Part shown: positions 6,903 through 18,952 of the stretch, one piece after another | How the letters are laid out: each line of letters opens with the position of its first letter | Position numbering within the stretch: the first letter of the stretch is position 1 | Source of the DNA: Opitutales bacterium | Lineage (GTDB): Bacteria > Verrucomicrobiota > Verrucomicrobiia > Opitutales > UBA953 | Direction of reading: 5' to 3' | Assembly: GCA_017440935.1 (NCBI GenBank) | Contig: JAFSAO010000012.1 | Location: 1-35,139, forward strand | DNA length: 35,139 bases | Program-made: the position numbers and the translations under genes | The notes under the pieces: generated by a model | Told to the model about the DNA's origin: nothing | The model's input: only the letters and a program-made list of their open reading frames with translations | The model's database searches: none

Positions 6903-8309
6903 ATGAGAGTAATACCCTACGGTGCCGCCGGCGGCGTGACCGGCTCCTGTTTTCTTGTTGATACCAAAAAATCGAAAATTCTCATCGATTGCGGGATTTT
7001 CCAAGGTTTCTCCACCGACGCATCGGCAAACCGAATCCCCGCCGGAATCCCGATCGAAAAACTCGACGCGGTGATTCTGACTCACGCGCACCTCGACCAC
7101 AGCGGCCGGCTCCCGCTCCTTGTCAAAGGCGGTTTTTCCAAAAAAATTTATGCCACACAGGCGACAATCGAAGTAGCAAAACTGATTTTGCTTGATTCTG
7201 CGCACTTGCAGGAATCCGACGCGGAACGCGAAAACCGCCGCCGTTCCCGCGCACTGAAAAAACTCGTGGAACCGCTTTACACAACCGAAGACGTAAAGCG
7301 CGTGTTCCCGCTGCTGACTCCGGTGCCGTATGAAGAAATATTTGACGCAGCACCGGGCATGAAAGCGAAACTTGTCGAAGCCGGGCACTTGCTCGGCTCG
7401 GCAAGTGTGGAACTGACGGTGAACGACGTCGGCGTGAAAAAATCGCTCCTGTTTTCCGGAGACCTCGGTCAACCCGACGCGCCGATTTTGCGCGACGCAA
7501 AAAAAATCGACGACGAGAACTTCGACGCGGTTTTCATTGAATCGACTTACGGCGACCGCGACCACCGCGATTTGCAATCAACGCTGAACGAATTTCACGA
7601 CTTGTTGCAAAACGCTATCGACAAGCGCGGGAAAGTGCTGATTCCGACTTTTGCTGTCGGTCGCGCACAACAGTTGCTATACCACTTAGGCGAATTTTTT
7701 AAGGAAAACAAACTTCCGAAAATTCCCATTTACCTCGACAGCCCGATGGCAATTGAGGCTTCCGCGCTATATTTCAAACACACGGAACTCTATGATGCCG
7801 AAGCGGCAGAATACGCGAAAACCCGCGCACTCGCGGTAGCGCTTTCAGGTCTCAAACTCTGCAAAACAGGCGAAGAATCCCGCGCGCTCAACGATATCGA
7901 AGGTCCCTGCATCATCATGGCGGGAGCGGGTATGTGCAACGGCGGACGCATTCTCCACCATTTGAAAAACAACCTTTGGAAACCGGAAACCACCCTGCTC
8001 ATCTGCGGATTCCAAGCGGAAGGTTCGCTCGGGCGGCTACTCGCCGAAGGCAGAAAACGCGTCCGTATTTACGGCGAAGAAATCGGTGTCCGCGCAAAGG
8101 TTTACACGCTCGGCGGATTTTCAGCACACGCGGGGCAAACGGATTTGTTGCGCTGGCTGGCACCGATTGCAGAGAAAAAGGCGAAGCGCCCGCGCGTCAT
8201 CATCGTTCACGGGGAACGCAGGCAACGCGAGGCTCTTTCGCAGAAAATTTTCGTTCGCTTCGGTATTCGTTCTGCAATTCCGAATCTCGGCGAAGCAGTT
8301 CTGCTTTGA
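6903..8309 (+). CDS. MBL-fold beta-CASP ribonuclease-like metallohydrolase
   Basis: This 468-aa enzyme has the metallo-beta-lactamase fold plus beta-CASP insert typical of RNA-processing nucleases related to CPSF-73/Ysh1. The zinc motif HAHLDHSG lies at residues 61-68 (H61, H63, D65, H66). Further landmarks are EAGHLLGSASVEL, the SGDLGQPDAP motif, FIESTYGDRDH, the beta-CASP stretch LIPTFAVGRAQQLLYHL, GAGMCNGGRILHHLKNN, and the C-terminal GGFSAHAGQTDLL histidine motif. All expected metal ligands appear present. Bacterial members are thought to act as exo- or endoribonucleases; the actual substrate is unknown. It lies 54 bases after the Rrf2 gene, probably with its own start, and ends at a strong terminator. 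Confidence 0.9.
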   Translation: MRVIPYGAAGGVTGSCFLVDTKKSKILIDCGIFQGFSTDASANRIPAGIPIEKLDAVILTHAHLDHSGRLPLLVKGGFSKKIYATQATIEVAKLILLDSAHLQESDAERENRRRSRALKKLVEPLYTTEDVKRVFPLLTPVPYEEIFDAAPGMKAKLVEAGHLLGSASVELTVNDVGVKKSLLFSGDLGQPDAPILRDAKKIDDENFDAVFIESTYGDRDHRDLQSTLNEFHDLLQNAIDKRGKVLIPTFAVGRAQQLLYHLGEFFKENKLPKIPIYLDSPMAIEASALYFKHTELYDAEAAEYAKTRALAVALSGLKLCKTGEESRALNDIEGPCIIMAGAGMCNGGRILHHLKNNLWKPETTLLICGFQAEGSLGRLLAEGRKRVRIYGEEIGVRAKVYTLGGFSAHAGQTDLLRWLAPIAEKKAKRPRVIIVHGERRQREALSQKIFVRFGIRSAIPNLGEAVLL

Positions 8310-8322
8310 CGAAAAATCGACA

Positions 8323-8369
8323 AAATCCGGCGCACGCGAAAAGACACGGGCGCCGGATTTGATTTTTTT
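8323..8369 (+). terminator. Terminator of the beta-CASP nuclease gene
   Basis: AAATCCGGCGC (8323-8333) pairs perfectly with GCGCCGGATTT (8350-8360), followed by a T-run. The T-run abuts the malic enzyme stop codon on the other strand, so the two convergent genes share the structure. Confidence 0.85.
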
Positions 8370-9675
8370 ACTTTCGGATGTTTGCGCGGATGCGGGCGCG
8401 AGTGGCATTGAGGCGTTCCCGCAACGCTGTGCGATACGCGTCCAAATCCGGAATTTGCACTTGGGCAACTCCCGTTTCCATTGCCGCTTTCGCGACGGCG
8501 GGAGCTTCCCACTCGAGAATACGCGGATCGAGCGGCTTCGGGATCAGATAATTTTCTCCGAAAACAAATTTTTCTCCGCCATACGCGGCGGCGACCTCCG
8601 CAGGGACAGGTTCGCGGGCGAGCGCGGCAAGCGAACGAGCGGCAGCAATTTTCATCTCCTCGTTAATCTGCGTGGCGCGCACGTCAAGCGCCGCGCGGAA
8701 AAGAAAGGGGAAACACGAAACATTGTTGATTTGATTCGGCCAATCCGAACGCCCGGAACCCATAATGCAGTCCGGACGGGCGGCTTTCGCATCTTCGTAT
8801 GTGATTTCCGGTTCGGGATTTGCACAGGCGAAAATAATCGGCGAAGGAGCCATGAGCTTGACCAAATCCTGCGTGAGCAAACCTTTTCGGGAAAGCCCGA
8901 GGAACAAATCCGCTCCCGTGAGCGCTTCCGCCATAGTTTGCGGGAGTTTTTGAGCAAAATAGGCTTTCGTCGGGTGCAAATCTTCTCGGGCTTCGTGAAT
9001 CAGCCCTTTCGAGTCGAACATGAAAATATTTTCGCGGCGGATGCCGAGCGAAACGTAAAAACGGGAACACGCAATCGCAGCCGCTCCCGCGCCGCTGACA
9101 ACGACTTTCATCGAAGAGAGTTCACGCCCCGTCAACGCGGCGGCATTAAGCAACGCCGCTCCCGTAATCACCGCCGTGCCGTGCTGATCGTCGTGAAACA
9201 CGGGGATGTTCATCTCTTTTTTCAAACGATCTTCAACCTCAAAGCAATCCGGGGCCTTGATGTCTTCCAAATTGACGGCGCCGAAAGTCGGCTCGAGCAT
9301 TTTCACGCAAGAAACGATTTCGTCCGGCGTTTTCGCCGCAAGTTCGAGGTCAAAAACATCGACATCCGCAAATGCTTTGAAAAGCAAACCCTTCCCTTCC
9401 ATAACGGGCTTGCCGGCGAGCGCTCCGATGTTGCCCAACCCGAGGACCGCGGTCCCGTTGGAAACAACGGCGACCAAATTCCCGCGTCCGGTGTAAAGCG
9501 CGGCTTTTGCCGGATCATCGCGAATTTCGAGGCAAGGCTCCGCCACTCCGGGCGTATAGGCGAGCGTCAAATCCGCCTGGTCGAAGCAGGCTTTCGTCGG
9601 AAGCACTTCGAGTTTTCCCGCACACGGGAACGCGTGGTAACGGGCAGCGGCATTCTTTAATTCTTCCTTGTTCAT
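8368..9675 (-). CDS. NAD(P)-dependent malic enzyme (oxaloacetate-decarboxylating), short form
   Basis: It oxidises malate to pyruvate and CO2 with NAD+ or NADP+. The 435-aa length is the short bacterial form, without the phosphotransacetylase domain of MaeB. Visible are [13 protein letters not shown] (active-site tyrosine region), [36 protein letters not shown] (metal ligands), [10 protein letters not shown], and the Rossmann motif [14 protein letters not shown]. Cofactor preference cannot be read safely. No Shine-Dalgarno is visible before the ATG at 9675. It is transcribed alone. Together with the mdh at 25672 it would handle malate in central carbon flow. Confidence 0.94.
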
Positions 9676-9876
9676 GATTTTATATTTCTGGTTTTGGAGT
9701 GATTACAAATTTAAATGCGCTTTTCCCAAAAAGTAAACTTTTGGATTTTCACAAAAGCAAAAAAGCGATGGAATTCCGGAGCAAACAGAGGAAAAATCCC
9801 CCTTTAAGTTTGACAGTCTCGTCAAAATCGAATTTCCTCTGGAACTCTTTTGAAGCGTTCGCGCTTCATAAAATTT

Positions 9877-9961
9877 GCCCAGGTGGTGAAATTGGTAGAC
9901 ACGCAGGTTTCAGGTACCTGTGCCGCGAGGCATAGGGGTTCAAGTCCCCTCTTGGGCACCA
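9877..9961 (+). tRNA. tRNA-Leu (anticodon CAG)
   Basis: The acceptor GCCCAGG pairs with CTTGGGC, and the 3' CCA is encoded. The anticodon arm CAGGT-TTCAGGT-ACCTG puts CAG at 9911-9913. A long variable arm (TGCCGCGAGGCA) confirms a class II tRNA, and the T arm has GGTTCAAGTCC. It reads the CUG leucine codon. A TTGACA at 9810-9815 may be its -35, but no good -10 follows. Confidence 0.97.
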
Positions 9962-9970
9962 TTTCAAAAC

Positions 9971-10010
9971 AGCCCGCAAGCCGCATAAATACAAGGCTCG
10001 CGGGCTTTTT
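9971..10010 (+). terminator. Terminator downstream of tRNA-Leu
   Basis: AGCCCGCAAGCC pairs with GGCTCGCGGGCT with one mismatch and is followed by TTTTT. Its sequence is closely related to the terminator after tRNA-Ala at 13241-13281, including the loop (GCCGCA-AAA-ACAA). Confidence 0.85.
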
Positions 10011-10337
10011 CGTGTCTTTTTGCAAAATCGTAAAAAGTTGCTGAATAACGCCAAATAATGCCAAAAAAAACACCCTTTCTTTGCAGAGATTTACGCATTG
10101 ATTCAAAGAATCCTCTTACCTAAGCGGGTTTCATGGCGTTTTTTTGGCGCAAGAGCGGTGTTTTCGCACGAAAAATCCCGCTCGCGGGAAGCAAACGGGC
10201 GGGAACGGGAAAAACGGGGCAGATTTCTGCTCGCGATGCAAATCGGAGCTTCCGTGGTTTTAGGATTCTTCTGCGCCCTTTCCCCTAAAAAATCTATGAT
10301 GAAAAGAAATTTGCGTTCCCGCGGGGGGAGTGATTCC
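10011..10337 (+). other. Long gene-free leader before ilvE
   Basis: The ilvE frame stays open upstream to 10098, but the implied 80 residues are basic, low in conservation-like features and unlike the enzyme family, so I treat them as untranslated. The stretch holds motif copies near 10201 and 10314 and the G-rich ribosome site at 10323-10330. No leader peptide with leucine or valine codon runs, T-box or attenuator hairpin was found. Confidence 0.4.
10323..10330 (+). promoter_or_regulatory. Ribosome binding site of ilvE
   Basis: GGGGGGAG lies 7 bases before the ATG at 10338. It is one of the few Shine-Dalgarno-like sequences in the window and decides the start. Confidence 0.55.
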
Positions 10338-11219
10338 ATGGAAGAACTTATGGAAGTTTACATCGACGGGAAATTTTACCAAAAAGAAGACGCGAAAGTT
10401 TCCGTCTTCGATCACGGACTGCTTTACGGAGACGGTCTCTTTGAAGGCATTCGCGTTTATGACAACTGCATCTTCAAGCTCGACGCCCACCTCGAACGCA
10501 TCGAATATTCGGCAAAAGCCATTGCGCTCGACCTGCCGTGGTCGCGCGAAGAAATTGCCCAAGCGCATATCGAAGCCTGCCGCCGCAACGGTGTGGCCAA
10601 CGGTTACATTCGCACCGTCATCACGCGCGGCGTCGGCGACCTCGGGCTCAGCCCGCGCAACTGCTCTAGCCCGTCAATGATCATCATTGCGGATTCGATC
10701 AAACTGTATCCGCCGGAAGTATACACAAACGGAATTAAGCTCATCACGGTTCCGACGCGCCGCATGAGTGTTGCTGCGCTCCCGCCGATGGTGAAATCGC
10801 TGAATTACCTGAACAACATTCTCGCGAAAATCGAAGCGCTCAACTGCGGTTACGACGAGTGCTTGCTTCTCAACGACCAGGGCAACGTTGCAGAATGCTC
10901 CGGCGACAACATTTTCATCATTCACAAGGGCAAACTCATCACGCCCGCTCCCGCCTCCGGACTGCTCATCGGCATCACGCGCTCGGCAGCAATGGAATGC
11001 GCACGCGAACTCGGTATTCCCGTGATTGAAACCGACATGACGCGCTACGACATCTGGAACGCCGACGAAGCCTTCATCACCGGCTCCGCCGCCGAAGTCG
11101 TTCCCGTCGTTGAACTCGACGGTCGCAAAATCGGTTCCGGCAAATGCGGACCTCTGACCGCGCAGCTGCTTGAACTTTTCCGCAAAAAAGTGCGTTGCGA
11201 CGGCGCAATGATTGCGTGA
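10338..11219 (+). CDS. ilvE: Branched-chain amino acid aminotransferase (PLP fold type IV)
   Basis: It transfers the amino group between glutamate and the keto acids of valine, leucine and isoleucine. The chosen start gives 293 aa. Motifs: VYIDGKFYQKEDAKVSVFDHGLLYGDGLFEG (7-36), the PLP lysine K153 in MVKSLNYLNNILAK, and ECSGDNIFII...ITPAPASGLLIGITR, the fold type IV cofactor region. The frame is open for another 80 codons upstream, but the family begins here and a G-rich ribosome site fits this ATG. A second ATG four codons later (MEVYIDGK) is an alternative. D-amino-acid aminotransferase and aminodeoxychorismate lyase share the fold; the motifs favour ilvE. It lies downstream of tRNA-Leu and is not linked to ilvN-ilvC. 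Confidence 0.9.
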   Translation: MEELMEVYIDGKFYQKEDAKVSVFDHGLLYGDGLFEGIRVYDNCIFKLDAHLERIEYSAKAIALDLPWSREEIAQAHIEACRRNGVANGYIRTVITRGVGDLGLSPRNCSSPSMIIIADSIKLYPPEVYTNGIKLITVPTRRMSVAALPPMVKSLNYLNNILAKIEALNCGYDECLLLNDQGNVAECSGDNIFIIHKGKLITPAPASGLLIGITRSAAMECARELGIPVIETDMTRYDIWNADEAFITGSAAEVVPVVELDGRKIGSGKCGPLTAQLLELFRKKVRCDGAMIA

Positions 11220-11225
11220 GAAAAA

Positions 11226-11335
11226 TTGATAATTGATGGCGGATAATTGATAGTTTTAGTGACCTGTGAACGATGACAAGAGGCAGGGGCTCACGAGAAA
11301 CGACCAACTATCCGCCATCGATCATTAATTATCAA
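11226..11335. repeat. Imperfect long inverted repeat with GATAATTGAT direct repeats
   Basis: The left arm (11226-11255) contains GATAATTGAT twice around GGCG, and the right arm (11306-11335) is largely its reverse complement (AACTATCCGCC...AATTATCAA). The loop is about 50 bases. It is AT-rich and unlike the genes around it. It may be a small dispersed element or the ilvE 3' structure; no T-run follows. Confidence 0.55.
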
Positions 11336-11450
11336 CCGCCCTCCCGTGGCTCGTAGTTCCCGCAGTCTTTGGACGCAAAAAATCCTCTCCGGCTCCGTTG
11401 AGAAAAACGACGGTTTGAGCTTGCAGGTATCGCGTTCCCGCGGGAGCGCG

Positions 11451-11972
11451 ATGGCATCGCTCCCGCCGATTATTCCGGGCGCACGCCTTCCCTATTCCGG
11501 GTTCGTACTGGGCATTGACCCGAGTTTGCGCGGGAGCGGTTTTGCCGTTGTGGAATTTGCGCCGGGCGCGGAACCGAAGCTGCATTTTTCAAAAACGCTG
11601 AAAATCGCACGCGATGTTTCGCTCGCGACTTGCCTCGGCGAAATCTACAAGCTCTGCGCCGATTGCTGCGAAGATTTTCCCGTGCGCCACGTTGCGCTCG
11701 AAGAGACGATTTACGTCAACAATTTTAAAGTCGCACAGGTCCTCGGTGCCGCGCGCGGCGCGGCGATTGCGGCGGCATCCGTTCTCGGGAGAAAAGTTTT
11801 TGAATATCCGCCGTTGCGCATCAAACAAGCCGTAGTCGGCTTCGGGCGCGCGCAAAAATCACAAGTCGCCGGCATGACGAAACAAATTTTAAAACTCGCC
11901 AAAGAGTTGCCCTTTGACGAGTCCGATGCCGCCGCTGCCGCGCTTTGCCACGGCTACACATACCGCGATTAG
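11451..11972 (+). CDS. ruvC: Holliday junction resolvase RuvC
   Basis: RuvC cuts four-way DNA junctions symmetrically with RuvAB. From the ATG at 11451 the protein is 173 aa, normal for RuvC; an in-frame upstream ATG (11346) would add 35 basic residues that do not fit. The catalytic acids are in place: D23 (LGIDPSLRGSG), E84 (VALEETIYVNNF), and D156/D159 in the DESDAAAAALCHGY motif (DxxD). The conserved PLRIKQAVVGFGRAQKSQVAGM is also present. ruvA and ruvB are not adjacent. It converges on the bile salt hydrolase gene with only 8 bases between the stops and no obvious terminator. Confidence 0.94.
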   Translation: MASLPPIIPGARLPYSGFVLGIDPSLRGSGFAVVEFAPGAEPKLHFSKTLKIARDVSLATCLGEIYKLCADCCEDFPVRHVALEETIYVNNFKVAQVLGAARGAAIAAASVLGRKVFEYPPLRIKQAVVGFGRAQKSQVAGMTKQILKLAKELPFDESDAAAAALCHGYTYRD

Positions 11973-11980
11973 CGGTAAAA

Positions 11981-12997
11981 TTACGCTTCGCAACAGAGCG
12001 GGACACATTCGTCCAATTCTCCGCCGTTTTGCAGGCGCACCCTTTGCTCCTTAATCAACGGATACGAAACAAGCTCGTTCCCGTTTAAATTTTCCCGGTG
12101 CATATCGACACAGGAAATTGCGCTGTTCCCGTAGGTTCTGTAGTAAAAAACGCCTGTTTCCGTATTGCAGCACGACGAATAAATCGTGATTTCATATTTG
12201 TCGCCGCCGAGATGAACGCAACCTTTTTGCTGATCCACAGAACCCAAAATGTGGAAAAACTGACTGACGCTTTCCGCCTCCGTGTTCCCGCACACCGAAT
12301 TTAATTTCGTAAATGCGGCTTTGACAAAACGGGAAGCCGACGACAAATCGCCCGGCAAACCGAACGCGCCCATTCCGCGGCTGTATGCATCCAGCTTCAA
12401 TTCCGGTGCCAGAGTATTCCGAATCGGTTCGCGCGAAGTCTGCATATAATTTGCAAGATTGAGTAGCTGAAACTCAAACGGCGGATTATTTGTCAACACC
12501 CCGACCGGATTTTCACTAAGTTTTAAACCGCCCGCCAAAAACTCGACCGTAAGCGATTTTTCCGCATCGGAGACCAACCAGTGCAACGGCGAAAGCGGAA
12601 GTTTTTCCGAAAAATTTTCGTTCAGCGCATTCACGCGCGAAAGGCGTTCCCGCGCCTCGTCAACACTCGCGCATTGACCGAGAATCCACGGAATCAGCTC
12701 AAACGGCGTAACATTGTCTTTCCCTGCGACAAACGGACTCCAAACCGCATTTCCGGCAAAATTCAGTCCCGCGATCCCGAGCCCTTTTTCATTCACGGCA
12801 TCATAGTAAAGCGGATAGTTTTCCGCCACATACGCCACGCCGATTATCGCGTAATGTGTCTCCAAGTTGCCGACATGGCGAAACTTAAACGGAAAATTCC
12901 TCGGCGTAATCGTCACGGTTTCGTCGTAGGAATATTCCAGATCCAAATTGCGCCCGAAATAATGATTCTTCGTTTTAAACGAAACGGCTGTGCACAT
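11981..12997 (-). CDS. bsh: Choloylglycine hydrolase family enzyme, probable bile salt hydrolase
   Basis: Ntn-hydrolase that cleaves the amide of conjugated bile salts, releasing glycine or taurine. Starting at MCTAVSF the protein is 338 aa, and removal of Met exposes the nucleophile Cys2. The other active-site residues of the clostridial enzyme align: R16 and D19 (GRNLDLEYS), N79 (LNFAGNA), N171 (LTNNPPF) and R223 (ASRF). An upstream ATG would bury the nucleophile and is rejected. Penicillin V acylase and N-acyl-homoserine-lactone acylase are relatives, but the motifs favour a bile salt hydrolase. It has a GGAG ribosome site, rare in this window. No signal peptide, so it is cytoplasmic. It stands alone, divergent from tRNA-Ala. 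Confidence 0.88.
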
Positions 12998-13007
12998 AAA
13001 TCTCCTT
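12998..13007 (-). promoter_or_regulatory. Shine-Dalgarno sequence of the bile salt hydrolase gene
   Basis: On the minus strand AAGGAGA sits immediately before TTT-ATG (GGAG 4 bases from the start), preceded by an A-run. Most neighbouring genes have no such site. Confidence 0.6.
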
Positions 13008-13148
13008 TTTTTTTGTTTTTCGTTGAGCGGGCGTTCCCGCCAAACACCCAAGCGTCGCCGGAAAAATTTTCCGTCTGCCAAGCTCCTTAAAAATTCTCTA
13101 TTGACGCTCCGAACGAAAAAATATTTCATTCTGCACATTCTCTTTTTT

Positions 13149-13224
13149 GGGGTCATAGCTCAGTTGGTAGAGCGCTTCAATGGCATTGAAGAGGTCGTCA
13201 GTTCGATCCTGATTGGCTCCACCA
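13149..13224 (+). tRNA. tRNA-Ala (anticodon GGC)
   Basis: The acceptor GGGGTCA pairs with TGGCTCC, with the discriminator A and encoded CCA following. The anticodon arm CTTCA-ATGGCAT-TGAAG places GGC at 13182-13184. The D arm AGCTCAGTTGGTAGAGC and T arm GTTCGATCC are canonical. A TTGACG at 13101-13106 is a possible -35. Confidence 0.97.
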
Positions 13225-13240
13225 TTTTCTTTCAAAAATC

Positions 13241-13281
13241 GCCCGCAAAGCCGCACAAACAAAGGTTTTGCGGGCTTTTTT
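13241..13281 (+). terminator. Terminator downstream of tRNA-Ala
   Basis: GCCCGCAAA (13241-13249) pairs with TTTGCGGGC (13267-13275), followed by six Ts. It is a close relative of the tRNA-Leu terminator at 9971-10010. Confidence 0.87.
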
Positions 13282-13352
13282 ATCGATTTTATCCGAAGGG
13301 AAAAACTTCGCCGTTGCGACGGGAACGGCTTTGCGGTTTCATTTGCGGCGTT

Positions 13353-14438
13353 ATGGGCAGTATTTTCGGAAAGCTTTTTCAGATTTCGACTTTCGGCGAA
13401 AGCCACGGCGCGGGAATCGGCGTCGTTATCGACGGTTGCCCGTCGCAACTTCCGATTTCGCCGGAGGAAATCCAACGGGAACTCGACCGCCGCCGCCCGG
13501 GACAAAGCGCTCTTTCCACGCCGCGCAATGAAGGCGACCGCGTCGAAATTCTCTCCGGAGTTTACCAAGGCATAACCACGGGAACGCCGATCGCCCTGCT
13601 CGTTCGCAATACGGATCACCGCCCGCAGGCTTACGACAAATTGCGCGAGCAATTCCGCCCGTCTCATGCGGATTTTACTTACATCGCCAAATACGGTTTC
13701 CGCAATCCGGAAGGCGGCGGGCGCGCTTCGGCACGCGAAACCATCGGACGCGTGGCGGCGGGAGCGATTGCGAAAAAAGTGCTCGCCACGCTTTGTCCGG
13801 AAATCGCTTTTTCCTGCTACGTTGAAAGCGTGGCGGAAATCGCAATGCCGCAAAGTGAAACCTTTTTTCCACAGAGCGAAATCGAAAGTGTTCCCGTGCG
13901 GTGCCCGATTTCCGAAATTGCGGAAAAAATGGAAGCACGCATCAAGGCGGCGCGAGCAAACGGCGATTCCGTCGGCGGAACGATTCGCTGCAAAATCCGC
14001 GGTGTGCCCGCAGGTTTGGGCGAACCGGTTTTTGATCGCCTCGAAGCGGATCTTGCCAAAGCGATGCTTTGCATTCCCGCGACAAAAGGTTTTGAAATCG
14101 GAAGCGGATTTGCGGGAACACTTTTGTGCGGCTCGCAACACAACGACGCGTTTGAAATGCGCGACGGGAAAATCCGCACCGCGACCAACCGCTCCGGCGG
14201 CGTCCAAGGCGGCATTTCCAACGGCGAAGAAATTTCGTTCCGTGTCGCCTTTAAACCGACACCGACGATTGCGAAAGCACAACAAAGCGTGAACGCATCG
14301 GGCGAAACCTGCGAAGTCATCGGACACGGTCGCCACGATCCGTGCGTGCTCCCGCGCGCCGTTCCGATTGTCGAATCCATGGCGGCACTCGTCCTCGTCG
14401 ATCACCTTTTGCGCCAACGCGCCCAACGCGTTTTTTAA
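13353..14438 (+). CDS. aroC: Chorismate synthase
   Basis: Last shikimate-pathway step: 5-enolpyruvylshikimate-3-phosphate to chorismate, using reduced FMN. The ATG at 13353 gives 361 aa, the family's usual size, starting [23 protein letters not shown]. Further signatures are [38 protein letters not shown], the GDSVGG motif, and the C-terminal [22 protein letters not shown]. The frame is open far upstream through tRNA-Ala, which cannot be coding. No Shine-Dalgarno is seen. No other aro genes are near. Confidence 0.96.
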
Positions 14439-14448
14439 CTTTTATTCA

Positions 14449-14535
14449 AACGCAAAGAGCTCAAAGATTTTCGCTCTGCTAAAATTCGTGTGAATTTGTG
14501 TTTATTCGTGGTTTCTTTAAACAAATCTTTGCGTT
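14449..14535. repeat. Intergenic element: 10-bp-phased ATTYGTG repeats inside an inverted repeat
   Basis: AACGCAAAGA (14449-14458) and TCTTTGCGTT (14526-14535) form the outer inverted repeat. Between them ATTCGTG, ATTTGTG and ATTCGTG end at 14490, 14500 and 14510, exactly one helical turn apart. The block precedes the CobW-like gene and may be its control region or a small dispersed repeat. Confidence 0.5.
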
Positions 14536-14550
14536 AAAAAATAATTTTCC

Positions 14551-15312
14551 ATGACAAATTTATATATTTTCCTCGGAACGCCGGATTGCGGGCGCAGAGC
14601 CGTTCTCGCGGATCTGATTCGCGACGGCCTTGACGGCGAAACAACCGTTTACATCGCCGAACCCGAGCGCAACGCTGAAGCGGAAAGGCCGCTCGCAGAC
14701 GTTCCCGCGACCGTGCTCCGATCGTGGAAATTTTCCGGAGACGGGAACGCCATCGATCTCGGCGAGCCGCACGATGCCGGAGACAACGCCGTTTTTCTGA
14801 CCGACGGAGAAGACGATCCCGTAGACCAAATCGAAGCACTCGCCGCCCTCGCCAAGCGGCTCGACTGGCACGTTGCGCGCGTCGTCACGATTGTCGATTG
14901 CAAATTCGCCTCCGCCGTTCCCGCGAGCGCGGACTGGTTTGCCGCATGCATCCACTTTTCGGATACGGTTTTGCTGACGAATCGCGAAGGTATTTCCAAC
15001 AAATGGATGAGCGACTTCAAAACGCCCTATATCAAAAACTGCTTCCCGTGCACCTTTGAACTTGTGAAAAAAAACCGGGTCGAAAATCCTGCGCGCGTGC
15101 TTGCGGACAACCCGCGCCGCATGACGATGATTTTCGACGAGCAGGACCCGATCGACGACATGGAGTTTGACGAAGAAAACCTGCCGGAAGAACCGTTCGA
15201 CTTAGTGTCCGCGCCGGATCCGTATTTTGAAACGACGGATTCCGGGGCACGAAAAATCGTCGTGCCTCTCATCGGGGATTTGCTCGATGCCTACGACAAC
15301 GCACAAAAATAA
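14551..15312 (+). CDS. Degenerate CobW/G3E-like P-loop protein, function unknown
   Basis: The 253-aa protein begins with a hydrophobic strand and a loop, LYIFLGTPDCGRRAVL, in the place of a Walker A motif but without the Lys-Ser/Thr. VVTIVDCKFASAV near residue 115 resembles the VITVVDA strand of G3E GTPases (CobW, UreG, HypB), and VLLTNREG resembles their NKxD base-recognition region. These are visual similarities and the family assignment is tentative. The C-terminal third is acidic (DPIDDMEFDEENLPEEPFD). The CXCC metal motif of CobW proteins is not present, though KNCFPC near residue 165 has two cysteines. It lies 11 bases before the ATP-grasp gene and is almost certainly co-transcribed, so the two products probably act together. 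Confidence 0.6.
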   Translation: MTNLYIFLGTPDCGRRAVLADLIRDGLDGETTVYIAEPERNAEAERPLADVPATVLRSWKFSGDGNAIDLGEPHDAGDNAVFLTDGEDDPVDQIEALAALAKRLDWHVARVVTIVDCKFASAVPASADWFAACIHFSDTVLLTNREGISNKWMSDFKTPYIKNCFPCTFELVKKNRVENPARVLADNPRRMTMIFDEQDPIDDMEFDEENLPEEPFDLVSAPDPYFETTDSGARKIVVPLIGDLLDAYDNAQK

Positions 15313-15323
15313 TCGCTCGAACA

Positions 15324-16469
15324 ATGTTTATTCTCGAAAAACCGTTTGTTTCAAACGAGCTGAAAGACTATCTCGAAGCTTCACAAGCCGCCGTTTTAAA
15401 AAACGACGTTGCTCTTGAGGCGGCGGGGACGCACAAGCTCCACCTCGTCGACGACGCCGAAGCGCGGGAACGCCTCACTTCCGGAGAACGCATTTACACC
15501 ACCTCCGAAAACGCGCTCAATTGGATTTACGCAAACGCCGCCGATCCCTCTCTCACGGCAACGATTGATGCGATGAAGAATAAAGCGACGATGCGCCGCC
15601 TGCTCAAATCGGTTTATCCCGATTTTTTCTTTGAGGAAATTGATGCGGAAAATCTGAAAAACGTAAAATTTGAGGACTTGCCCTGCCCGGTTGTTCTAAA
15701 ACCGTCGGTCGGTTTTTTCAGCGTCGGCGTTTACACGATTCACACGCGGGAAGACTGGACTCGCGCGCTTTCGGACATTGAAAGCACGTCCGAAAACTGG
15801 GAAAAACTCTATCCGGAATGCGTGCTCGGGAACGGAAAATTTGTCATCGAAAAATATATACACGGCGAAGAATACGCCGTAGATGTTTATTTTGACGAAA
15901 ACGGGAACGCCGTAATTCTAAATATTCTCAAACACGACTTTTCTTCGGAAAGCGACGTCAGCGACCGCCTTTACTACACGTCAAAAGAAATCATTTCGGA
16001 GAAACTGGCTCCGCTCACGGAATTTTTCAACCGCGTAAACGGTGTCCTCGGAGCGAAAAACTTTCCCGCGCACGTCGAATTGCGCATTGAGCGCAACGGG
16101 AATGTATGCCCGATCGAGTTTAACCCGATGCGTTTTGCCGGTTGCTGTTGCACGGATGTCGGACTTTTTGCCTACGGCGTTCGCACCTATGAATATTTTA
16201 TCGAAAACAAAAAACCGGATTGGGAAAAGCTGCTCAAAGGCAAAGACGGGAAAATTTACACGATGTGCGTGTTGAATAAGCCCGTGCCCTGCCCGCCGAT
16301 TCGCGATTTCGATTACGATGCGCTCTGCGCAAAATTTGAGCGCGTGTGTTGCCTGCGCAAATTCGACTACAACGCGAATACGATATTCGGGTTTCTTTAC
16401 ACCGAAACGACGAATCCGGAAGAATTGAAATTTATCGTCAATTCCGATCTCACGGAATTTATCCGCTGA
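15324..16469 (+). CDS. ATP-grasp domain protein, probable carboxylate-amine or -thiol ligase
   Basis: At 381 aa it has a pre-ATP-grasp domain (MFILEKPFVSNELKDYL...) followed by an ATP-grasp fold. The landmarks are CPVVLKPSVGFFSVGVY (phosphate-binding Lys and loop), FVIEKYIHGEEYAVDVYFDENG (adenine and Mg-side strand) and VCPIEFNPMRFAGCC, where Glu and Asn should bind Mg. Such enzymes activate a carboxylate as acyl-phosphate and join it to an amine or thiol; the substrate here is unknown. The C-terminal part (YTMCVLNKP, FGFLYTE) resembles a family I believe occurs in other anaerobes, from memory only. It follows the CobW-like gene by 11 bases and converges on rnpB, ending 15 bases before the RNA. 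Confidence 0.82.
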   Translation: MFILEKPFVSNELKDYLEASQAAVLKNDVALEAAGTHKLHLVDDAEARERLTSGERIYTTSENALNWIYANAADPSLTATIDAMKNKATMRRLLKSVYPDFFFEEIDAENLKNVKFEDLPCPVVLKPSVGFFSVGVYTIHTREDWTRALSDIESTSENWEKLYPECVLGNGKFVIEKYIHGEEYAVDVYFDENGNAVILNILKHDFSSESDVSDRLYYTSKEIISEKLAPLTEFFNRVNGVLGAKNFPAHVELRIERNGNVCPIEFNPMRFAGCCCTDVGLFAYGVRTYEYFIENKKPDWEKLLKGKDGKIYTMCVLNKPVPCPPIRDFDYDALCAKFERVCCLRKFDYNANTIFGFLYTETTNPEELKFIVNSDLTEFIR

Positions 16470-16484
16470 AAAAAAAAGAAAAGC

Positions 16485-16880
16485 CTTCGAGGTGCTGTAA
16501 GCCGGATTCCGTAGCGCGGGGCGCTTTCGCGTTCCCGCGTTCGCATTCATTCCTCTGAAGCGCGTTCCCGCGCCTCCCGCCTTGCGGCGGTGCGACATAC
16601 CCGCGAGCATCGGACGGGCAGCCCGCTCGCCTATTCTGTCTTGCACCGGATTGGGTTTGTCCTGCCTCCTTCGTTGCCGTCGGAGCGGTGAGCTCTTACC
16701 TCGCCGTTTCACCCTCACCCGCACGTTGCCGCACGGGCAGTCTGTTTTCTGTGACACTGTCCGTCGACGCGCCTTGCGACACGTCGCCCCCGTTTTCACG
16801 GGGAATCCTGCCCTGTGGTGTCCGGACTTTCCTCTCGCAAAAACTTGCGTTCCCGCGAGCGAATGCGCGCACCTCGAAGA
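16485..16880 (-). ncRNA. rnpB: RNase P RNA (bacterial class A)
   Basis: Read on the minus strand it has the universal core GAGGAAAGTCCGGACACC and CACAGGGCAGGAT (P4 5' side). It continues with GGGTGAAACGGCGAGGTAAGAGCTCACCG, the ACAGAATAGG stretch and the 3' core GGAATCCGGCTTACAGC. The ends pair as P1: CTTCGAGGTGC with GCACCTCGAAG. A T-run follows the 3' end and makes P1 part of the terminator. The molecule is about 395 nt. Three copies of the GGGAACG motif sit in peripheral helices, two as CGCG-GGAA-CGCG type hairpins with a GNRA-class loop. Confidence 0.96.
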
Positions 16881-17821: not shown

Positions 17822-18952
17822 ATGGCTACGAAAAAAGCTCCCACGAAAAAAGCTCCGGCGGCGAAAGCTGCCGCTCCCGCAAAAAAGGCTTGCGGTAAAA
17901 AAGCCTGCGCCGCCAAGAAACCCGTTCCCGCAAAAAAAGCGACGAGCGGCAAGAAAGTTCCTGTCGGCAGCGTAAAAGTTTACCACGAAAAAGACGCTTC
18001 GCTCGACGTGCTGAAAGGCAAAACGATTGCCGTGCTCGGCTACGGAGCGCAGGGACGCGCCCAAGCACTTTGCATGCGCGACTCCGGCGTGAACGTCATC
18101 ATCGGCGTGCGTGCGGGCAAGTCGTTCAAGGCGGCGAAGGCTGACGGTTTTGAAGTCATGTCCGTCGATAAGGCAGCGAAAAAGGCGGACATTATCCACA
18201 TTCTTCTCCCCGACGAAAAGCACAACGAAGTTTACGAAAAACAGATCAAGAAGTTCGTTGCTCCGGGCAAGACGCTTTGCTGCTCGCACGGCTTCGCCTA
18301 TGTTTTCAAGGCGATTGTTCCGCCGGCGGATGTTGACGTGATCATGGTTGCGCCGAAAGGTCCGGGAACGGAAGTGCGCCGCGTGTTTGAAGAAGGATTC
18401 GGTTGCCCGGGTCTCGTCGCCGTGTTCCAGGACGCGACGGGAACGGCGCTTCAAACGGCGCTCGCCATCGCGAAGGCGGAAGGTCTCACGCGCGGCGGCG
18501 TGCTCGAATGCACGATGGAACAGGAAACCTACGAAGACCTCTTCGGTGAACAGAACGTGCTCTGCGGCGGTCTCGTTGACCTGATGAAATATGGCTTTGA
18601 AACGCTCACGGAAGCGGGCTATCCGCCGGAAATGGCGTATTTTGAATGCGTCCACGAAGCGAAGCTCATCGTCGACATCATTTACAACAAGGGAATCGCG
18701 GCGATGAACGGCGTTATCTCCAACACGGCGGAATTCGGCGAATACTACAACGGGCCGAAAATCATCACGCCGGACGTAAAGAAGCGCATGAAAGAATCGC
18801 TCGAACGCATTCAATCCGGCAAGTTTGCCAAGGATTGGCTCCGCGAAGCCAGCAAGGGCGCTCCGACGCTTGCCAAGAAGCGCGAACAGCTCGGAAAACA
18901 CACCGTCGAAGTCGTCGGTGCCGAAATCCGCAAGATGTTCGAACGCAAATAA
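17822..18952 (+). CDS. ilvC: Ketol-acid reductoisomerase with a histone-H1-like Lys/Ala/Pro tail
   Basis: The enzyme isomerises and reduces acetolactate to dihydroxyisovalerate with NAD(P)H and Mg2+. The 376-aa product has a normal class I core from about residue 50: VKVYHEKDASLDVLKGKTIAVLGYGAQGRAQ (Rossmann), GVRAGKSF (cofactor loop), HGF, PKGPG, DLFGEQNVLCGG and YFECVHE with Mg-binding acids. Before it lies a tail of about 48 residues with 15 lysines plus Ala, Pro and two Cys (C24, C29), made of AKKA/PAKK-type repeats as in histone H1-like or AlgP-like tails. It has an ATG in frame, contains a motif copy (GTTCCCG, Val-Pro-Ala) and no stop, so it appears to be translated. Confidence 0.94.
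   Translation: MATKKAPTKKAPAAKAAAPAKKACGKKACAAKKPVPAKKATSGKKVPVGSVKVYHEKDASLDVLKGKTIAVLGYGAQGRAQALCMRDSGVNVIIGVRAGKSFKAAKADGFEVMSVDKAAKKADIIHILLPDEKHNEVYEKQIKKFVAPGKTLCCSHGFAYVFKAIVPPADVDVIMVAPKGPGTEVRRVFEEGFGCPGLVAVFQDATGTALQTALAIAKAEGLTRGGVLECTMEQETYEDLFGEQNVLCGGLVDLMKYGFETLTEAGYPPEMAYFECVHEAKLIVDIIYNKGIAAMNGVISNTAEFGEYYNGPKIITPDVKKRMKESLERIQSGKFAKDWLREASKGAPTLAKKREQLGKHTVEVVGAEIRKMFERK

Follow-up and report, generated by a model that had tools for sequence, protein, structure and literature searches.

The window analyzed here, a 35,139-nucleotide stretch of DNA from a member of the Opitutales, contains two closely spaced open reading frames, ORF 1 and ORF 2, that appear to have separate histories. 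ORF 1 belongs to a single-copy family found across the order Opitutales, usually located directly behind the chorismate synthase gene aroC, and it is very probably a pseudo-GTPase descended from the G3E family of GTPases. ORF 2 encodes an ATP-grasp enzyme of patchy distribution and, with near certainty, does not form a conserved cassette with ORF 1. The overall explanation that we favor, at roughly even confidence, is that ORF 1 works without nucleotide, as a pseudo-GTPase in the service of AroC or the shikimate branch, and that ORF 2 is separate from it.

Organization of the locus

Both ORFs are open on the forward strand, ORF 1 at positions 14551 to 15312 (253 aa) and ORF 2 at positions 15324 to 16469 (381 aa), and are separated by an 11-bp gap, in agreement with a preliminary description of this DNA. 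Within the genus of the window, pairwise dN/dS values range from 0.065 to 0.18 for ORF 1 and from 0.08 to 0.24 for ORF 2, these values being rough in distant pairs, for which dS is near or above 1. Both reading frames are therefore under purifying selection and are real, far beyond chance. Upstream on the same strand lies aroC (13353 to 14438; Pfam Chorismate_synt, 5.1e-135). The longest ORF at this position, 12990 to 14438, is over-extended: a tRNA gene (13149 to 13221, forward strand) is located inside it, which confirms that aroC does not extend over the whole of this ORF. The aroC start was set at MGSIFGK in line with the 361-aa ORFs at two loci from members of the same genus (L093 and L094). 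Downstream, a class A RNase P RNA (16482 to 16878, reverse strand; Rfam RF00010, 223 bits) is convergent with ORF 2 and forms the boundary of the unit. An RNase P RNA was not found beside ORF 2 at L093 and L094, where a very long ORF, exceeding 2000 aa, runs convergent to ORF 2 (7586 to 14131 and 8913 to 14990, respectively, both on the reverse strand).

Two other genes of the window were also inspected. A choloylglycine hydrolase family protein, possibly a bile-salt hydrolase or acylase, is encoded on the reverse strand at 11981 to 13156 (CBAH, 1.3e-94); its ORF is over-extended as well, with a likely start at MCTAVSF that places a cysteine second. On the forward strand, a ketol-acid reductoisomerase (17822 to 18952; KARI_N and KARI_C) bears an N-terminal extension of about 50 residues that is rich in lysine and alanine, resembles histone H1, and is also present in a close relative (L092).

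ORF 1 is widespread in Opitutales and usually adjoins aroC

A search with ORF 1 gave matches at E<=1e-3 in 85 of 95 relatives, and a profile search added fragments in two others (G019 and G052), for a total of 87 of 95. At the level of the phylum, 43 of 288 genomes matched, and all 43 were the window's own genome or members of the same genus, family or order; a same-order genome without a detected ORF 1 may be present among the 225 unlisted non-matching phylum genomes. Among the 83 genomes with both genes, aroC is located directly upstream of ORF 1 on the same strand in 74, and this arrangement is found in 17 of 19 families. One of the two exception families (f18, represented by G077) cannot be judged, because its aroC fragment sits at a contig start. 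A separate count, made over stretches containing ORF 1, placed aroC upstream in 36 of 40, one of these at a distance of 1.8 kb. As an internal control, the neighbor families within about 7 kb of ORF 1 were counted: with aroC and its antisense shadow set aside, the commonest reached at most 14 of the 41 stretches, and what lies downstream of ORF 1 changes freely between genomes.

The presence and absence of the two genes across the 95 genomes follow a similar pattern: both were detected in 83, ORF 1 only in two, aroC only in three, and neither in seven (Fisher 3.7e-7, a value that ignores relatedness and in which joint absence comes mostly from small genomes). In two of the three genomes scored as having aroC only, the profile search revealed an ORF 1 fragment immediately after aroC, presumably cut by the contig end, and the remaining one (G065) is 80% complete. 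Of the two genomes with ORF 1 only, G075 is 64% complete and has aroB. G072 is 91% complete, and in it aroC was not detectable and aroB gave no match; toward its C terminus, the ORF 1 of G072 diverges from the other members. The case of G072 makes a strictly AroC-bound role for ORF 1 doubtful.

Together, these observations suggest a functional tie of ORF 1 to AroC or to its pathway, for which we consider the chances to be evenly balanced. Synteny alone does not show interaction. The strongest rival to such a tie is that ORF 1 is a co-transcribed passenger, carried in the aroC operon for housekeeping and having a role outside aromatic synthesis. The retention of ORF 1 in G072 and the separation of the two genes in 9 of the 83 genomes are both what a passenger would lead one to expect, but the adjacency persists in 17 of 19 families although other neighbors turn over, and both genes are jointly absent from 7 of the 95 genomes. 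We therefore regard the passenger explanation as possible, though on the unlikely side.

ORF 1 has a predicted G3E-like fold and has lost the G3E motifs

An AlphaFold2 model of ORF 1, built from an alignment of 49 members, was of high confidence (pLDDT 93.1, pTM 0.89). A Foldseek search of the PDB with this model placed the E. coli COG0523 protein YjiA first (E 1.2e-4, 14% identity). In VIA-align, the best structural matches were the nickel-insertion G3E GTPases HypB (Z 12.8, rmsd 3.1, 170 residues aligned; a second HypB structure, Z 12.7) and UreG (Z 11.7), with SRP GTPases and MeaB scoring nearly as high, so that structure alone assigns ORF 1 only to the SIMIBI class. Sequence comparison narrows this assignment to G3E: the Pfam cobW family matches 23 of the 49 members (best 2.6e-6), and hhalign of ORF 1 against ten canonical Opitutales G3E proteins gave a probability of 95.4 (E 1.7e-8) over 174 columns, where the P-loop, VVDA and ADVxLLNK segments line up. 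The window's ORF 1 sequence by itself gave no meaningful match in Pfam or NCBIfam. Likewise, an ORF 1 profile searched against PDB sequences returned nothing below 0.27, so the link to G3E rests on the fold searches, the profile comparison and the Pfam matches of family members. The suggestion in the preliminary description that ORF 1 is CobW-like and has a G3E fold is thus upheld.

That description had also proposed that the Walker lysine of ORF 1 is lost, and this proved correct. The P-loop reads LGTPDCGRRAVL, as compared with GFLGAGKTT in G3E proteins, and its degenerate core (residues 9 to 16, GTPDCGRR; 14575 to 14598, forward strand) has Arg15 at the position of the lysine. Motif counts over the 49-member alignment revealed that the loss is general. 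The canonical Walker A motif GxxxxGK[ST] is present in 0 of 49 members, and 48 of the 49 have arginine in place of the lysine. None of the 49 has the Walker-B glutamate at the aligned position 84, where threonine (26) and alanine (13) prevail. NKxD is gone at its aligned site, which mostly reads N, T or A, then R or N, then R, and [NT]KxD occurs anywhere in the sequence in only 3 of 49. The CxCC metal motif was likewise found in 0 of 49. Nevertheless, other positions of the family are strictly kept: F136, D138, P166, R190 and G232 are invariant, and R15, E95, R110, H135, D196, D223, Y225 and R234 are nearly so. These invariant residues, together with the low dN/dS values, indicate that ORF 1 is not decaying.

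The preliminary description had further noted an acidic tail. An acidic stretch does exist, at about residues 196 to 216 (15136 to 15198, forward strand), but it is an internal linker of low pLDDT rather than a tail. The lowest-confidence blocks of the model span residues 201 to 220, at a pLDDT of 70 to 72, and the C-terminal segment that follows the linker is confidently modeled and ends in a helix (241 to 252).

Several features distinguish ORF 1 from its nearest known counterparts. It resembles the COG0523 proteins YjiA and CobW in its fold, in its profile homology and in the cobW matches of its members, but it differs from them in lacking the Walker A lysine, the Walker-B glutamate, NKxD and CxCC, and in being a single-copy, order-wide protein encoded beside aroC; the Pfam matches of its members do not include the CobW C-terminal domain. 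HypB and UreG bind GTP and metal, whereas ORF 1 is without the nucleotide motifs. According to the available portion of Haas et al. 2009 (PMC2770081), the Walker-B glutamate and an intact NKXD set G3E apart from other SIMIBI GTPases; judged by its sequence, ORF 1 descends from G3E GTPases but, as it retains neither of these two features, does not itself count as one. The same portion of that account describes a precedent, the COG0523-like protein Rv0106, which is without the canonical CXCC and Walker A motifs and hence is presumed to have no GTPase activity. Proteins of the Rv0106 type share these two losses with ORF 1, a likeness drawn from their description only, and differ in that a link to aroC, as seen for ORF 1, is absent from what that portion says of them.

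An alternative is that ORF 1 is a divergent G3E metallochaperone that still binds nucleotide by means of an arginine-type P-loop. The P-loop glycines are mostly retained (G9 in 48 of 49, G14 in 42 of 49), the arginine could contact phosphate, and the overall fold appears from the model to be preserved. However, the position following that of the lysine holds another arginine in 30 of 49 members and only rarely serine or threonine, and such a protein would have to function with the Walker-B glutamate, the aligned NKxD and CxCC all missing, which leads us to consider this alternative improbable. We also evaluated a new metal site, in which ORF 1 would act as a metal carrier through C117, C133, H135 and C167 in place of CxCC. 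These candidate residues are well conserved (45, 42, 48 and 42 of 49 rows, respectively), but exactly one of the four is lost in 8 of the 13 deviating rows. A concerted cysteine and histidine site was rejected on account of this loss of residues singly, and a metal carrier of this kind is very unlikely.

ORF 2 is a separate ATP-grasp enzyme of patchy distribution

ORF 2 matches ATP-grasp_4 (PF13535) at 3.3e-66, with 222 bits as compared with a cut-off of 27. Residues K126, E176, E183, E265 and N267 are invariant in a 10-row alignment and, by what we take to be general for the family, have roles in binding ATP and Mg. K126, E265 and N267 thus bear out the earlier proposal of an ATP-grasp enzyme with its Lys, Glu and Asn intact. 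The solved structure nearest to the ORF 2 profile is the L-amino acid ligase BL00235 (4.5e-16), and BacD matched at 5.6e-6. Foldseek with the ORF 2 model, which is of moderate confidence (pLDDT 82), gave BL00235 at rank 1 and filled ranks 1 to 6 with BL00235, RizA and BacD/YwfE. These L-amino acid ligases have in common with ORF 2 the ATP-grasp_4 fold and the residues for ATP and Mg, but identity is only about 13 to 17% over the fold, ORF 2 is shorter, and, unlike for these ligases, no biosynthetic neighbors were seen at 12 ORF 2 loci. From its sequence, ORF 2 is probably an active amide-forming ligase. By analogy with the family, from which its chemistry is taken, it probably joins an amino acid or a similar carboxylate to an amine.

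The distribution of ORF 2 differs markedly from that of ORF 1. At a threshold of 1e-20 it was found in 6 of the 95 relatives, all within the genus of the window (eight sampled members); the L027 locus encodes a protein 89% identical to that of the window. Relatives of 37 to 44% identity occur sporadically, at five loci in genomes of Ignavibacteria, Chlorobiota and Gastranaerophilales and in Flavobacterium-labelled genomes. In the phylum of the window, 4 of 288 genomes contain ORF 2 relatives, two of the four being from the window's genus, and in the phylum of the Ignavibacteria genome G373 the count is 4 of 296. A search of 72,556 plasmid records gave no match. Across the 12 loci, no neighbor family was common beyond pairs: two families, which we take to be rubrerythrin-like and flavin-reductase-like, each recur in two loci, as expected at chance level. 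In G256, a genome of the same phylum from outside the order, an aroC-like gene precedes the ORF 2 relative at a distance of about 2.6 kb, three other genes lying in between (locus L090, 1169 to 3040 and 5609 to 6742). As the only such case among 12 loci apart from the window, it is probably due to chance. The GC content of ORF 2 (0.486) is below that of aroC (for which the count began 6 bases before the assigned start), ORF 1 and ilvC (0.56 to 0.58) but near that of ilvN (0.499), and composition is therefore not decisive as to a horizontal origin. The patchy distribution suggests that ORF 2 is a stand-alone gene, probably gained horizontally by one genus.

ORF 1 and ORF 2 adjoin each other in five genomes, all of one genus, with gaps of 11, 54, 29, 29 and 58 bp. 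In a further genome, G004, the two are on different contigs, and the gene downstream of ORF 1 is presumably decarboxylase-like. Two members of the window's genus, G001 and G006, have ORF 1 and are without ORF 2; in G001 the place of ORF 2 is taken by another gene, presumably prenyltransferase-like, that starts 2 bp downstream of ORF 1. Among the seven genomes from outside the order with ORF 2 relatives, none had ORF 1 at E<=1e-3. The preliminary description had proposed a two-gene system, had named co-occurrence as a check, and had stated that separation of the two genes in other genomes would refute the proposal. On this point it did not hold, as ORF 2 is found in 6 of 95 relatives and ORF 1 in 85 of 95, and outside one genus the two genes do not occur as a pair. 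A cassette, in which the ORF 2 ligase would act on a metal or cofactor substrate presented or sensed by ORF 1, could draw on the short gap in the window, the adjacency in five genomes and the G3E descent of ORF 1, but co-occurrence and synteny (the counts above, the separate contigs of G004, the absences from G001 and G006 and from outside the order, and the substituted gene of G001) are against it, and it was rejected as extremely improbable. The pair is instead a recent, genus-level juxtaposition and not a system.

Proposed role of ORF 1

The sequences show that the ORF 1 family, of G3E fold, has lost all of its nucleotide-binding motifs, and by this evidence ORF 1 would not use GTP. Co-expression with aroC would follow from the aroC-ORF 1 operon. 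As a nucleotide-independent pseudo-GTPase, ORF 1 would most likely support or regulate chorismate synthase, or the shikimate and aromatic branch, as a scaffold, an activator or a metabolite-sensing partner, in which case the former nucleotide pocket and the conserved C-terminal segment could provide a surface for binding a ligand or partner. In the model, and placed by secondary-structure order only, the conserved Arg15, Glu95, Cys117 and Arg145, in place of Walker residues, would line the former nucleotide edge. ORF 2, an independent ligase, would have been acquired by one genus and placed behind aroC and ORF 1. A more specific version, which we offer as a speculation and think unlikely, is that a G3E GTPase lost nucleotide binding in the ancestor of Opitutales and became a dedicated regulator or scaffold of chorismate synthase. 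In this version the former phosphate pocket of ORF 1, now lined by arginine, would sense an anionic metabolite of the aromatic pathway (e.g., EPSP, chorismate or prephenate), and ORF 1 would adjust the activity of AroC accordingly.

In the literature searched, no paper joined CobW with pseudo-GTPase, Opitutales with CobW, or SIMIBI with pseudoGTPase, and the available portion of PMC3444138 does not mention CobW or chorismate. An earlier description of an order-wide, aroC-linked pseudo-G3E protein was not found in that literature. Recognition of the ATP-grasp gene as a separate, patchy acquisition removes a false lead from the interpretation of this locus. If the proposed role of ORF 1 is true, an order-wide protein built like a metal-delivering GTPase, yet devoid of its nucleotide chemistry, would have been put to new use as the partner of an enzyme, here the one that completes the shikimate pathway, which would be unusual for a GTPase fold.
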